A stretch of 34,508 bases of DNA, from assembly GCA_902780585.1 (NCBI GenBank), contig CACZGA010000027.1, positions 1 to 34,508 on the forward strand. Direction: 5' to 3'. The position numbers and the translations under genes were made by a program. Of this stretch, positions 12,978 to 21,898 are shown in pieces; positions within the stretch are counted from its first letter, which is position 1; every line of letters begins with the position of its first letter. The notes beneath the pieces were generated by a model. The model did no database searches, was not told the DNA's origin, and worked only from the letters and a program-made list of their open reading frames with translations. The DNA is from an uncultured Erysipelotrichaceae bacterium. Its GTDB lineage: Bacteria; Bacillota_I; Bacilli_A; RF39; UBA660.

Positions 12978-13054
12978 GGGCGATTAGCTCAGTTGGTTAG
13001 AGCACCTGCCTTACAAGCAGGGGGTCACAGGTTCGAGTCCTGTATCGCCCACCA
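12978..13054 (+). tRNA. tRNA-Val(TAC)
   Basis: Acceptor GGGCGAT/ATCGCCC, anticodon stem CCTGC/GCAGG around CTTACAA, standard T-arm, CCA encoded. First of the block. Confidence 0.97.
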
Positions 13055-13057
13055 TTT

Positions 13058-13133
<76 letters not shown>

Positions 13134-13141
13134 TTTTTTTT

Positions 13142-13226
13142 GGAGAGGTAGCGAAGAGGCTAAACGCGACAGACTGTAAATCTGTTCTCTTTGAGTTCGA
13201 TGGTTCGAATCCATCTCTCTCCACCA
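13142..13226 (+). tRNA. tRNA-Tyr(GTA)
   Basis: Acceptor GGAGAGG/TCTCTCC (one G-U), anticodon loop CTGTAAA, long variable arm as expected for bacterial tRNA-Tyr, CCA encoded. Confidence 0.95.
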
Positions 13227-13236
13227 CTTTTGTTTT

Positions 13237-13311
13237 TGCCTCGTAGCCAAGTGGTAAGGCATCAGACTTTGACTCTGACATGCGTTAGTTCGAATCTAAC
13301 CGAGGCAGCCA
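13237..13311 (+). tRNA. tRNA-Gln(TTG)
   Basis: Acceptor TGCCTCG/CGAGGCA, anticodon loop CTTTGAC in stem TCAGA/TCTGA, discriminator G, CCA encoded. Confidence 0.96.
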
Positions 13312-13319
13312 ATTAATAT

Positions 13320-13395
13320 GATCTGTTAGCTCAGTTGGTAGAGCATTTGACTTTTAATCAAAGGGTCATGAGTTCGAATCTCATACAGGTCACCA
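13320..13395 (+). tRNA. tRNA-Lys(TTT)
   Basis: Acceptor GATCTGT/ACAGGTC with one T-G pair, anticodon loop CTTTTAA in stem TTTGA/TCAAA, CCA encoded. Confidence 0.96.
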
Positions 13396-13401
13396 TGTTG
13401 T

Positions 13402-13490
13402 GCCTGAGTGGCGGAATTGGTAGACGCACAGGACTTAAAATCCTGCGAGAATCAACCCTCGTGCCGGTTCAAGTCCGGCCTTAGGCACCA
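13402..13490 (+). tRNA. tRNA-Leu(TAA)
   Basis: Acceptor GCCTGAG/CTTAGGC, anticodon loop CTTAAAA in stem CAGGA/TCCTG, long variable arm (class II), CCA encoded. A likely substrate of the TrmL encoded at 9798. Confidence 0.95.
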
Positions 13491-13497
13491 CTTATAT

Positions 13498-13590
13498 GGA
13501 GGAATACCCAAGTCTGGTTGAAGGGACCGGTCTTGAAAACCGGGAGGTCGCGCAAGCGGCGCAGGGGTTCGAATCCCTTTTCCTCCGCCA
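13498..13590 (+). tRNA. tRNA-Ser(TGA)
   Basis: Acceptor GGAGGAA/TTCCTCC, anticodon loop CTTGAAA in stem CCGGT/ACCGG, long GC-rich variable arm, CCA encoded. Confidence 0.96.
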
Positions 13591-13606
13591 CTTATATTTT
13601 ATATAT

Positions 13607-13683
<77 letters not shown>

Positions 13684-13695
13684 ATTTATTTATAT

Positions 13696-13772
13696 GGTTC
13701 CTTGGTGCAGCTGGTTAACACGTTTGCCTGTCACGCAAAAGATCGCGGGTTCGAGTCCCGTAGGAACCGCCA
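13696..13772 (+). tRNA. tRNA-Asp(GTC)
   Basis: Acceptor GGTTCCT/AGGAACC, anticodon loop CTGTCAC in stem TTTGC/GCAAA, discriminator G, CCA encoded. Confidence 0.96.
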
Positions 13773-13778
13773 TTATTT

Positions 13779-13833
13779 GGCTTCATAGCTCAGAATCCCT
13801 GTGTCGCTGGTTCGATTCCCGCTGGAGCCACCA
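13779..13833 (+). pseudogene. Truncated tRNA-Phe remnant (internal deletion)
   Basis: Only 55 bases. The acceptor arms pair (GGCTTCA/TGGAGCC) and CCA is encoded, but the sequence jumps from the first part of the D-arm (TAGCTCAG) to the 3' side of the anticodon stem (AATCCCTGTGTCGC). The D-loop, the 5' anticodon stem and the anticodon are missing, about 21 bases. The T-stem GCTGG/CCCGC also has a T-C mismatch. The remaining 3' half reads like Bacilli tRNA-Phe, and fMet-Asp-Phe is a common gene order in Bacilli tRNA blocks, which supports the identity. It cannot form a cloverleaf or decode. A sequencing or assembly deletion cannot be excluded. Confidence 0.75.
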
Positions 13834-13872
13834 ATTTATTGTTTTTTAGCTAGTAGCTAGGCTCAATATCTC

Positions 13873-13949
13873 GCGCTCGTAGCTCAGTTGGATAGAGTGT
13901 TTGGCTACGAACCAAGAGGTCGGGGGTTCGAATCCCTCCGAGCGCACCA
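13873..13949 (+). tRNA. tRNA-Arg(ACG)
   Basis: Acceptor GCGCTCG/CGAGCGC, anticodon loop CTACGAA. A34 would be edited to inosine by TadA. CCA encoded. A 39-base spacer, the longest in the block, separates it from the Phe remnant. Confidence 0.96.
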
Positions 13950-13953
13950 TACT

Positions 13954-14030
13954 CGGGAAGTGGCTCAACTTGGTAGAGCACTTGGTTTGGGACCAAGGGG
14001 TTGCAGGTTCAAATCCTGTCTTCCCGACCA
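13954..14030 (+). tRNA. tRNA-Pro(TGG)
   Basis: Acceptor CGGGAAG/CTTCCCG, anticodon loop TTTGGGA in stem CTTGG/CCAAG, CCA encoded. Last of the block. Confidence 0.96.
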
Positions 14031-19518: not shown

Positions 19519-20298
19519 GTGAAATTTTTTGATGGTATTACTAATAGAGAAGATTTGAAAAAAGCATATCATGCATTAATGAAGGATAATCATCCTGATA
19601 CTAAGCCTGAGGATGAGAGGGATGCTTATACTAAAATATGTCAAGCTATAACAGATCAATATACTTCTTTATATATAATTCTTCCAAGTGCAGATGATTT
19701 GGGATTGGATAAAAAAGATAAAAATGGTTGGGGGGAAGCATATCGTGTATTTGGTGATATTAGACAGGGTTTGGATAAGCTTCCAATTTATAGGAAATAT
19801 TATAAAAAGAATTTCTATGAAAGTTATCCTGATGATGACCCTGGTGTTGTTCAAAAAGGTGTTTCAGAGTATGAAGATGGTATTTTGTATGCTAATGAAT
19901 GGTATATTAGTAAGTTAGATACTATTTGTTTTAATAAATTACATCTTTCTTTAGATGAGGTTAACACGTTATATGAACTATGTGGACGAAATGCAGAAAA
20001 ATTTAAAAGAGTTATTGCTTTCTTTTCTACTTTAGCTATTGCGTCTTATGATATTCATGCTAATTTGGCGGCTGATAATCCTGTTCCATTTTTTGATGAT
20101 GAAATACCATTGGAGGGAATACCTGATTATAGTTCGTCACTGGTTTTTAATAGTATTGATAATCCTGATCTTTGGAAAAAATATATGGATGATTATACTT
20201 GGAGGTCTTTTGCAACATTTTGTGGGTTACAGAGGGACTCTTTTGAAAGAAGATATATTTCAAAATTAACGGAGACACCTAGAATAGAGAGAAGATGA
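19519..20298 (+). CDS. J-domain (DnaJ-like) protein
   Basis: GTG 19519 is chosen because ATGAGG (19505-19510) lies 8 bases upstream; the other in-frame GTG at 19510 overlaps that site. Of 259 residues, 1-50 form an N-terminal J-domain with helix II LKKAYHALMKDN and the H25-P26-D27 motif that stimulates DnaK. Zinc-finger and G/F regions of DnaJ are absent, so this is a class III J-protein. The rest is acidic and helical and not recognised; it probably picks the client. DnaK is not in the window. Confidence 0.75.
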   Translation: MKFFDGITNREDLKKAYHALMKDNHPDTKPEDERDAYTKICQAITDQYTSLYIILPSADDLGLDKKDKNGWGEAYRVFGDIRQGLDKLPIYRKYYKKNFYESYPDDDPGVVQKGVSEYEDGILYANEWYISKLDTICFNKLHLSLDEVNTLYELCGRNAEKFKRVIAFFSTLAIASYDIHANLAADNPVPFFDDEIPLEGIPDYSSSLVFNSIDNPDLWKKYMDDYTWRSFATFCGLQRDSFERRYISKLTETPRIERR

Positions 20299-20299
20299 T

Positions 20300-20328
20300 A
20301 AAAGCCAATTGATATTGGCTTTTTTTAT
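20300..20328 (+). terminator. Terminator after the J-domain gene
   Basis: AAAAGCCAAT (20300-20309), TGAT loop, ATTGGCTTTT (20314-20323), then T. Confidence 0.9.
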
Positions 20329-20335
20329 TTATATA

Positions 20336-20364
20336 TTGACATAATTGCTAAACAATATTATATT
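20336..20364 (+). promoter_or_regulatory. Promoter of glyS
   Basis: TTGACA (20336-20341), 17-base spacer, TATATT (20359-20364). It fixes the start of the T-box leader at about 20371. Confidence 0.78.
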
Positions 20365-20370
20365 TATTTC

Positions 20371-20490
20371 ATAAGTGTGATGACGGGTGTGGAATACCCA
20401 GAGCAGTATAGTATCGAGCTGATTCTTCTAGAATAAGTAAGGTGGAACCGCGGAGTTTACTTCGTCCTTACGTTATTCTAGAAGTTTTTT
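20371..20490 (+). promoter_or_regulatory. Short T-box riboswitch controlling glyS (transcription termination type)
   Basis: The T-box AAGGTGGAACCGCGG is at 20439-20453. Its TGGA (20443-20446) would pair with a UCCA tRNA end, matching the U73 discriminator expected of tRNA-Gly. The terminator is a long stem: CTTCTAGAATAA (20425-20436) with TTATTCTAGAAG (20473-20484), plus GTAAGG/CCTTAC, then six T. Only about 68 bases lie between the predicted transcript start and the T-box, so a full-size Stem I does not fit. The hairpin GGGTG-TGGAA-TACCC (20385-20399) displays GGA, a glycine codon, in its loop and is the likely specifier. Uncharged tRNA-Gly would favour the antiterminator and glyS expression. 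Confidence 0.9.
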
Positions 20491-20521
20491 GTTTTTTACT
20501 ATATAATAAGGAGGATTTTTT

Positions 20522-21898
20522 ATGGAAAAGTTAACAATGGAAAAATTAGTTAATTATTGCAAACAATATGGTTTTATATTTCAAGGATCTGAAATATATG
20601 GAGGTTTATCAAATTCTTGGGATTATGGTCCTTTAGGAAGAGAATTAAAAGAGAATATTAAAAGAGCTTGGTGGAGAGAGTTTATTCAGAAAGAGAAGAA
20701 TAGTTATGGATTAGATGCTGCTATTATTATGAATCCTGAAGTATGGGTTGCATCTGGTCACGTAGCAAGTTTTGCTGACCCTTTAGTTGATTGTAAAGCA
20801 TGTAAGGCAAGACATAGAGCTGATAAATTGATTGAGGACTTTACAGGAGGAAAAGAGACTGGTGATGGATGGGACAATAAAAAGTTAGAAAAATATATTG
20901 CTGATAATAATATTCCTTGTCCTAAGTGTGGAAAAAGTGATTTTACTGAAATTAGAAAGTTTAATTTGTTATTTGAAACTCATATTGGTGTTACTGAAGA
21001 TTCACAATCTAAAGTATATTTACGTGGAGAGACGGCTCAAGGTATATTTGTAAACTTTAATAATGTACTTAGAAGCCAAAGAGCAAAGGTACCTTTTGGA
21101 ATAGGGCAAATAGGTAAGGCCTTTAGAAATGAAATTACACCTGGTAACTTTACTTTTAGAACAAGAGAGTTTGAACAAATGGAGTATGAGTTTTTCTGTA
21201 AACCAGATACTGATTTAGAGTGGCATAAGTATTTTAAAGAAAAATGTTTAAAATTCTTAGAATCTTTAGGATTAAAAGGAGATAATTTAAGATATAGAGA
21301 TCATTCTAAGGAAGAATTATCGTTCTATAGTAAGGCAACTACTGATATTGAATTCTTATATCCTATGGGTTGGGGAGAATTATGGGGAATTGCTGATAGA
21401 ACAGACTATGATTTATCTGTTCACGAAGAGCATTCTAAAACAGAACTTAAATATTTAGATCCAGAAACTAATGAAAAATATGTACCTTATGTTATAGAAC
21501 CATCTGTTGGAGTTGACAGATTATTACTTGCTATTTTATGTAATGCTTATGAAGAAGAGGAATTAGATAATGACACTAGAGAAGTTTTACATATTCTTCC
21601 TTCTTTAGCACCTTATAAAGTTAGTGTACTTCCTCTTGTTAAAAAGTATCATAGCGATAAAGCTAATGAAATCTATCAAGAACTATCTAAATACTTTATG
21701 ACTTCTTATGATGAGACTGGAAGTATTGGTAAAAGATATCGTAGGAGTGATGCAATTGGAACTCCTTGGTGTATAACAATAGATAATGATACCTTAGAAA
21801 ATGGTACTGTTACTATACGAGATCGTGATACGATGGAGCAGATTACTATGAAGGTAGATGAGGTTATTCCATACATTCAAGAAAGAATTCAATTTTAG
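20522..21898 (+). CDS. glyS: Glycyl-tRNA synthetase, dimeric type
   Basis: Joins glycine to tRNA-Gly. The 458 residues are of the single-chain dimeric class II type found in many Firmicutes, mollicutes and eukaryotes, not the tetrameric GlyQ/GlyS form. Seen: EIYGGLSNSWDYGPLG near the N-terminus, a zinc-like set C91-x2-C94 and C133-x2-C136, FNLLFETHIG, the motif 2 region RGETAQGIFVNF (168-179), FEQMEYEFF, and a C-terminal anticodon-binding domain (about 360-455). The start follows AAGGAGG. It is controlled by the T-box leader upstream. Confidence 0.97.
   Translation: MEKLTMEKLVNYCKQYGFIFQGSEIYGGLSNSWDYGPLGRELKENIKRAWWREFIQKEKNSYGLDAAIIMNPEVWVASGHVASFADPLVDCKACKARHRADKLIEDFTGGKETGDGWDNKKLEKYIADNNIPCPKCGKSDFTEIRKFNLLFETHIGVTEDSQSKVYLRGETAQGIFVNFNNVLRSQRAKVPFGIGQIGKAFRNEITPGNFTFRTREFEQMEYEFFCKPDTDLEWHKYFKEKCLKFLESLGLKGDNLRYRDHSKEELSFYSKATTDIEFLYPMGWGELWGIADRTDYDLSVHEEHSKTELKYLDPETNEKYVPYVIEPSVGVDRLLLAILCNAYEEEELDNDTREVLHILPSLAPYKVSVLPLVKKYHSDKANEIYQELSKYFMTSYDETGSIGKRYRRSDAIGTPWCITIDNDTLENGTVTIRDRDTMEQITMKVDEVIPYIQERIQF

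Follow-up and report, generated by a model that had tools for sequence, protein, structure and literature searches.

The leader of glyS at positions 20371–20490 of the window (the whole stretch of DNA analysed, 34,508 nucleotides from a gut-dwelling member of the Bacilli) is very probably a transcriptional, glycine-specific T-box riboswitch at minimum size, which would sense tRNA-Gly through a tiny hairpin. The basis for this reading is comparative and comprises the position of the promoter, both Stem I helices, the identity of the codon, the architecture of the terminator and the absence of a distal Stem I and of Stem II. From these features we infer tRNA binding, a response to charging and termination itself.

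Locus and parts of the glyS leader

Upstream, the leader is bounded by the terminator of the previous gene, whose stop codon is at 20298, and downstream by glyS. The features of the locus were assigned as follows.

20300..20323, + strand: intrinsic terminator of the upstream gene, with a 10-pair stem, 4-nt loop and T tract
20336..20364, + strand: sigma-A promoter TTGACA-17-TATATT, with -35 at 20336–20341 and -10 at 20359–20364; 11/12 matches
20371..20378, + strand: lower Stem I, 5' strand AUAAGUGU; the triplet UGU 20376–20378 pairs with GCA 20403–20405; covariation in relatives
20379..20383, + strand: K-turn, 5' side GAUGA, with the 3' side AGA at 20400–20402; near-invariant among short-form relatives
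20385..20399, + strand: decoding hairpin, GGGU 20385–20388 / ACCC 20396–20399 with loop GUGGAAU 20389–20395; compensatory changes at all four pairs
20391..20393, + strand: specifier codon GGA (Gly), flanked by U20390 and A20394; relatives have only GGA, GGC or GGU
20403..20409, + strand: lower Stem I, 3' strand GCAGUAU; covariation in relatives
20410..20421, + strand: 12-nt single-stranded linker in the place of Stem II, ending in a purine string (GAGCUG); 9–15 nt in relatives
20422..20434, + strand: Stem III AUUC/GAAU, then AA; 99.7 % of cells paired, with changes on both sides
20425..20490, + strand: terminator, with arms 20425–20442 and 20466–20484 and U tract 20485–20490 (six U); the antiterminator is embedded inside
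20438..20470, + strand: antiterminator, A1 UAAGG 20438–20442 / CCUUA 20466–20470 and A2 GCGGAG 20450–20455 / CUUCGU 20460–20465
20443..20449, + strand: T-box bulge UGGAACC; by sequence, UGGA 20443–20446 is complementary to the UCCA-3' of tRNA-Gly (U73)
20508..20514, + strand: Shine-Dalgarno sequence AAGGAGG, assigned from sequence, outside the terminator
20522..21898, + strand: glyS, dimeric glycyl-tRNA synthetase, 458 aa (NCBIfam NF003211 glycine--tRNA ligase, E 2e-203)

Judged from the promoter position, transcription would start at about 20371, which is exactly the 5' strand of Stem I. Stem I is 39 nt long and consists of the lower stem, the K-turn GAUGA/AGA, a 4-bp helix and a 7-nt apical loop GU-GGA-AU; the K-turn and lower stem together occupy 20371–20383/20400–20409, and the K-turn agrees with the Rfam T-box consensus (gCgaUGA / GGAGC). 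The T-box core of the leader reads AAGGUGGAACCGCGG. Folding of the Stem I region alone with ViennaRNA favoured another structure, the program being unable to model K-turns, and the decoding hairpin alone was not unusually stable (z -1.08).

A first-pass annotation of this DNA had reported a T-box, a UGGA bulge for a U73 tRNA and a strong terminator, and all three are present, at 20438–20470, 20443–20446 and 20425–20490 respectively. It had taken the promoter and the previous terminator, which are present at 20336–20364 and 20300–20323, to limit the leader to about 68 bases before the T-box, in near agreement with the 67 nt measured from the predicted +1 (20371) to the antiterminator helix (20438). 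The 5-bp hairpin with GGA in its loop that it placed at 20385–20399 is real, but its conserved form has 4 bp and a 7-nt loop, the fifth pair G20389–U20395 being mostly not conserved in relatives; nor is this hairpin the whole decoding element, as had been suggested, given that Stem I also has the K-turn and lower stem and extends to approximately 39 nt. The lack of Stem II and the engulfing of the antiterminator by the terminator are features beyond that annotation.

The leader carries the expected marks of a T-box. The 7-nt bulge UGGNACC lies between A1 and A2, with A2 closed by G-U (20438–20470), and a glycine specifier, GGA at 20391–20393, precedes glyS in a genome that encodes tRNA-Gly(UCC) with U73, fitting both the GGA codon and the UGGA bulge. 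The anticodon loop of this tRNA is CUUCCAA. Both complete tRNA-Gly genes, (UCC) and (GCC), end in U-CCA, so that UGGN fits the discriminator as UGGA against U73. The element RRRxG–Stem III–AA is found in the forms AAAGUG/AAAGCUG-AUUC..GAAU-AA, with one extra base before the G of the purine string in many leaders, that of the window included.

An Rfam search at the gathering threshold found nothing at the window leader. The leader scores 32–37 bits against a gathering score of 93 for RF00230, with 32.4 bits (E = 7.6e-6) on the window at a permissive threshold, a shortfall that fits the missing parts of Stem I and Stem II. The permissive alignment of Stem I was rejected, because it pushes Stem I onto the upstream terminator. 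Long-form relatives in the window's family likewise fall below the Rfam cut (61–72 bits). Eleven other T-boxes in the same genome scored 63–138 bits with the Rfam model, and these carry visibly long leaders, those cut by contig edges aside. At one locus (L011 1501–1695; G000:C15:19507–19701) a tRNA gene is placed between a T-box and the gene it precedes: it comes immediately after the terminator of a full-length T-box and is itself followed by a 345-aa ORF, presumably pheS. Eleven tRNA genes form a cluster on the + strand of the window at 12978–14030. Another contig of the same genome (G000:C69; L204, L206) is dense in tRNA genes, among them one with a CUA anticodon and one for an odd tRNA-Gly(UCC), and may be phage or contamination.

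Conservation, distribution and origin of the short form

GlyS was used to collect the sequence ahead of the gene in 99 related genomes and on 80 named genome contigs; the relatives are uncultured Bacilli, many of animal gut origin. A motif requiring TGG[AC] extracted 53 distinct short leaders, and a covariance model was built on 26 of them. With this model, for which TGG[AC] was not required, 69 short leaders were recovered from the collected loci, all at 71 bits or above, and the apical loop contains UGGA or UGGC in every one of them. In more distant members of the family the codon is GGA, GGC or GGU, each of which specifies glycine. Among the loops GU-GGA-AA is the most frequent; it has seven bases, with the codon at an anticodon-like place and a U preceding it.

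Covariation among homologous leaders had been proposed as a check in the first-pass annotation and was borne out: both Stem I helices covary, with a glycine codon always in the loop. The lower Stem I triplets flanking the K-turn covary as UGY/GCA, AGY/GCU, CGU/GCG and AAC/GUU (compensatory pairs UA 48, AU 24 and CG 3), and the upper helix occurs as GGGU/GCCY, AGGU/ACCU, UAAG/CUUA, GUGU/ACAC, GGAU/AUCC and others. In an alignment of 79 leaders, which was fitted to the structure and in which ten rows are other than short forms, the shared structure was paired in 96.9 % of cells compared to 43–50 % in slid controls, the covariation score was 0.359 compared to 0.144 in shuffles (0/500), and both sides change at 18 of 20 pairs. 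A1 and A2 were paired in 100 % of cells with compensatory changes in each, and a G-U closes A2 in 74/79 leaders. In a MAFFT alignment of 26 leaders, made independently, 93.4 % of cells were paired and the score was 0.253 compared to 0.138 in shuffles (0/500).

A promoter matching at least 9 of 12 positions was found in 46 of the 53 leaders; the spacer is 17 nt in 42 of them, and the -10 box ends 13–15 nt before GAUGA in 41 of the 46 leaders with a scorable promoter. Transcription would thus begin at the first bases of Stem I, and a longer Stem I cannot hide upstream of a promoter fixed 13–15 nt before the K-turn. This fixed distance in relatives upholds the earlier view that there is no room for a full Stem I with an elbow platform. 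Lower Stem I and Stem III were separated by 9–15 nt with a mode of 12 in the 53 leaders, two outliers being parsing failures; such a linker is too short for Stem II and the IIA/B pseudoknot, which we therefore take to be absent. A possible Stem II hairpin in the linker, CAGC..GCUG, looks convincing in some leaders but was rejected, since it is not kept in G006, G018 and G032 and would take bases of the covarying lower Stem I.

In the class-wide search, 38 of 395 genomes matched the covariance model at E≤1e-9, all of them in the window's own family, which contributes 54 of the 395. Among 392 phylum-wide genomes, every match above 60 bits was in that family. Within the family 353 of 386 genomes matched at 1e-6, and each of the approximately 150 best places listed scored at least 83 bits; the weakest in-family matches include long forms and other T-boxes. 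The short form was not found in the sampled genomes outside the family (395 class-wide, 392 phylum-wide). Judged by these matches, the short form is family-wide. Two weak matches outside the family (L255, L256) were ordinary long T-boxes, and a third (L257) belongs to an Asp T-box.

This second reduced T-box is a transcriptional leader in another family (f10; L257–L265 and L268, e.g. L257 145–268) with an apparent GAC (Asp) specifier, and it precedes an ORF that by its look is a putative GNAT-like acetyltransferase. Some relatives have a long Stem I with a distal module, while in others it is capped by a 4–5 bp hairpin; L261 has an ultra-short Stem I with the codon in the apical loop, and L266, L267 and L269 are long sisters. 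No Stem II was found in any of the Asp-type leaders of this family that were examined.

A long Stem I with an AGGUA loop and distal module is present ahead of glyS in two genera of the window's family, g3 and g231 (L029, L240, L242–L244). Compared to the short form, these long leaders have approximately 65 nt more Stem I, with the AGGUA specifier loop and distal module, and the same K-turn; the g3 form also shares the 12-nt linker, Stem III, the bulge and the terminator with its embedded antiterminator. As the g3 long form matches the short form elsewhere, loss of approximately 65 nt is the simplest origin, and the short form most likely arose by such a loss of distal Stem I, whereby the internal specifier loop would have become an apical loop. 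A tree of 83 GlyS proteins contained several separate GlyS lineages within one genus and family with a near-identical short leader ahead of them, and the regulator thus appears to outlive replacement of the glyS gene. The tree was unusable for counting Stem I losses because the family holds several exchanged GlyS lineages.

Some members of the family depart from the common form. Short glyS-type leaders seemingly without Stem III, retaining only the Stem I hairpin, linker and antiterminator, occur in g227 (L222, L231), g253 (L224, L228) and g300 (L232). The bulge is UGGG in place of UGGA in g232 (L220, L235), g227 (L225) and g296 (L226), which would call for either G-U pairing with U73 or an altered discriminator in the tRNA; the g232 short leaders have a GGU specifier. 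At several loci (L030, L039 and L041; G010, G012, G013, G017, G023 and G033) the short leader lies approximately 380 nt or more upstream of glyS and precedes another ORF of up to approximately 180 aa, so that both genes would be under the switch.

Terminator architecture and proposed switching

The terminator region of the window has an MFE of -26.7 kcal/mol compared to -8.2 kcal/mol for the antiterminator and Stem III without tRNA. The default state would therefore be off and something must hold Stem III, uncharged tRNA-Gly being the obvious candidate. The 3' arm of the terminator finds its partner ahead of the T-box, in Stem III and the flanking bases, in at least 46 of the 53 leaders, and the terminator thus contains the whole antiterminator; in most of the remaining leaders the U tract was apparently misplaced by the script. 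In the published picture of T-boxes the terminator takes its 5' strand from the 3' strands of A1 and A2 (PMC7583486), so that there is competition for the 3' strand of the antiterminator, whereas in the short glyS leader the antiterminator is swallowed. This terminator is also unlike those of most other T-boxes of the same genome. It is not unique, since glyS leaders from two species of Clostridium (L162, L170) fold alike, and a T-box in the same genome located before probable metG (L004) also folds in this way.

In the proposed mechanism, RNA polymerase would start at about 20371 and at once make the 39-nt Stem I, composed of an A/U-rich lower stem, the K-turn, 4 bp and the GGA loop. The apical loop might adopt a U-turn, and its GGA would pair with the UCC anticodon of tRNA-Gly; the pairing could be widened to UGGAA with U33–A37 of tRNA-Gly(UCC). 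After the linker, Stem III and the antiterminator would form, and the UGGA bulge would pair with the 3' UCCA of uncharged tRNA-Gly. With uncharged tRNA bound, Stem III and the antiterminator would be kept from the arm at 20471–20484 and glyS would be transcribed. With charged tRNA or none, this arm would invade Stem III to form an 18-bp hairpin enclosing the antiterminator, and transcription would stop at the U tract. Given that neither elbow platform nor Stem II is present, affinity would come from bivalent binding of the anticodon loop and NCCA, perhaps with a K-turn-binding protein.

The same switch could instead owe its affinity mainly to an L7Ae-type K-turn binder such as YbxF or to another trans factor. 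No part of the reduced Stem I is better conserved than the K-turn, and K-turn binders have been proposed as T-box helpers (PMC7583486); the geometry needs the K-turn as well, however, and we consider this version unlikely. A decaying T-box, in which a working terminator and a relic Stem I would attenuate glyS constantly with no tRNA sensing, agrees with the strong reduction of Stem I and with the seeming loss of Stem III in some genera of the family, as would be expected of serial losses. Yet both Stem I helices show strong compensatory change, the U-GG is invariant and only glycine codons occur, and a relic would not keep the covariation of A1 and A2 and the fixed promoter distance across the family, which makes decay very improbable.

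Most T-boxes have long leaders, and a second promoter-like site at 20309–20337 might suggest a normal long Stem I with a start further upstream. This site overlaps the terminator hairpin at 20300–20323 and would add only approximately 27 nt, and the upstream stretch is otherwise the previous gene, with its stop at 20298. The Rfam fit over this stretch is poor, and relatives share the same promoter at the same distance and have unrelated sequence further upstream, leaving next to no weight to an upstream start with conserved Stem I elements, which the first-pass annotation had named as evidence against a short leader. Equally hard to credit is translational control of the kind seen in actinobacterial T-boxes, where translational ileS leaders are known to have an ultrashort Stem I. 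A hairpin followed by a strong U tract ends 51 of the 53 leaders, as anticipated in the earlier prediction of transcriptional action, and the Shine-Dalgarno sequence of the window (20508–20514) is outside the hairpin.

Relation to known T-box classes

Four classes of T-box have been described: class I with a long Stem I and Stem II, class II with glycine specificity and a long Stem I without Stem II, class III with a short Stem I, the codon in a 5–6-nt apical loop and a required Stem II, mostly translational, and class IV with an intermediate Stem I and Stem II (PMC10482949). The elbow motif and the Stem II S-turn, singly or together, reinforce the binding of tRNA (PMC10482949). Fast transcriptional T-boxes generally need the elbow platform and are compromised when it is disabled, and according to a 2020 review a truncated Stem I of the translational kind hardly binds tRNA unless Stem II is present (PMC7583486). 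In light of these findings on truncated Stem I and the platform, a T-box with neither elbow platform nor Stem II is unexpected.

The glyS leader is best described as a predicted new architectural variant of a known riboswitch family, lacking both the elbow platform and Stem II. It is rated as a variant rather than as categorically new because TBDB mentions truncated Stem I among class I hits (PMC7778990), so that prior notice is possible, and because the comparison with the literature is partial. We think it somewhat probable that it represents a fifth T-box architecture: transcriptional, with a 7-base decoding loop resembling an anticodon loop, with neither elbow platform nor Stem II, and with a terminator that displaces Stem III and not the antiterminator, having arisen within a single family of Bacilli through precise loss of the distal part of Stem I; the comparable reduction of an Asp T-box in a second family suggests more than one occurrence. 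If true, the minimal RNA for tRNA selection and charge sensing within the time of transcription would become directly testable, and a switch of approximately 120 nt would be a simple model and tool. A family-wide short form would also explain why Rfam-based annotation misses such leaders.

With class II (the Bacillus subtilis glyQS type) the short leader shares glycine specificity, transcriptional action, the K-turn, the absence of Stem II with a flexible single-stranded linker (here 9–15 nt), a discriminator with the UGGA bulge and the Stem III purine string (PMC10482949). Class II leaders have a long Stem I with a distal double T-loop that binds the elbow, whereas here Stem I is 39 nt and nothing is present above the specifier; the internal specifier loop with its AGUA S-turn is likewise lacking, the codon being in the apical loop, and the specifier is GGA in place of the GGC of glyQ T-boxes (PMC7583486). 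With class III (Nocardia and Mycobacterium ileS) it shares a short Stem I with a K-turn, the codon in the apical loop and the absence of an elbow platform (PMC10482949), and the earlier statement that ultra-short Stem I is known from actinobacterial translational ileS T-boxes is correct for this class. In contrast to class III, which requires Stem II with an S-turn and the IIA/B pseudoknot, the 9–15-nt linker leaves no space for either; the short leader is also predicted to be transcriptional, is specific for glycine rather than isoleucine, has a 7-nt rather than a 5–6-nt loop and is found in Bacilli rather than Actinobacteria. Class IV (Actinomyces odontolyticus ileS) has no elbow platform either, but has Stem II and carries the codon in a side bulge (PMC10482949). 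Thus, by its discriminator, codon, K-turn and bulge the glyS leader is a predicted member of the T-box family outside all four published classes, in line with the first-pass proposal that a transcriptional glycine version would be a different design.
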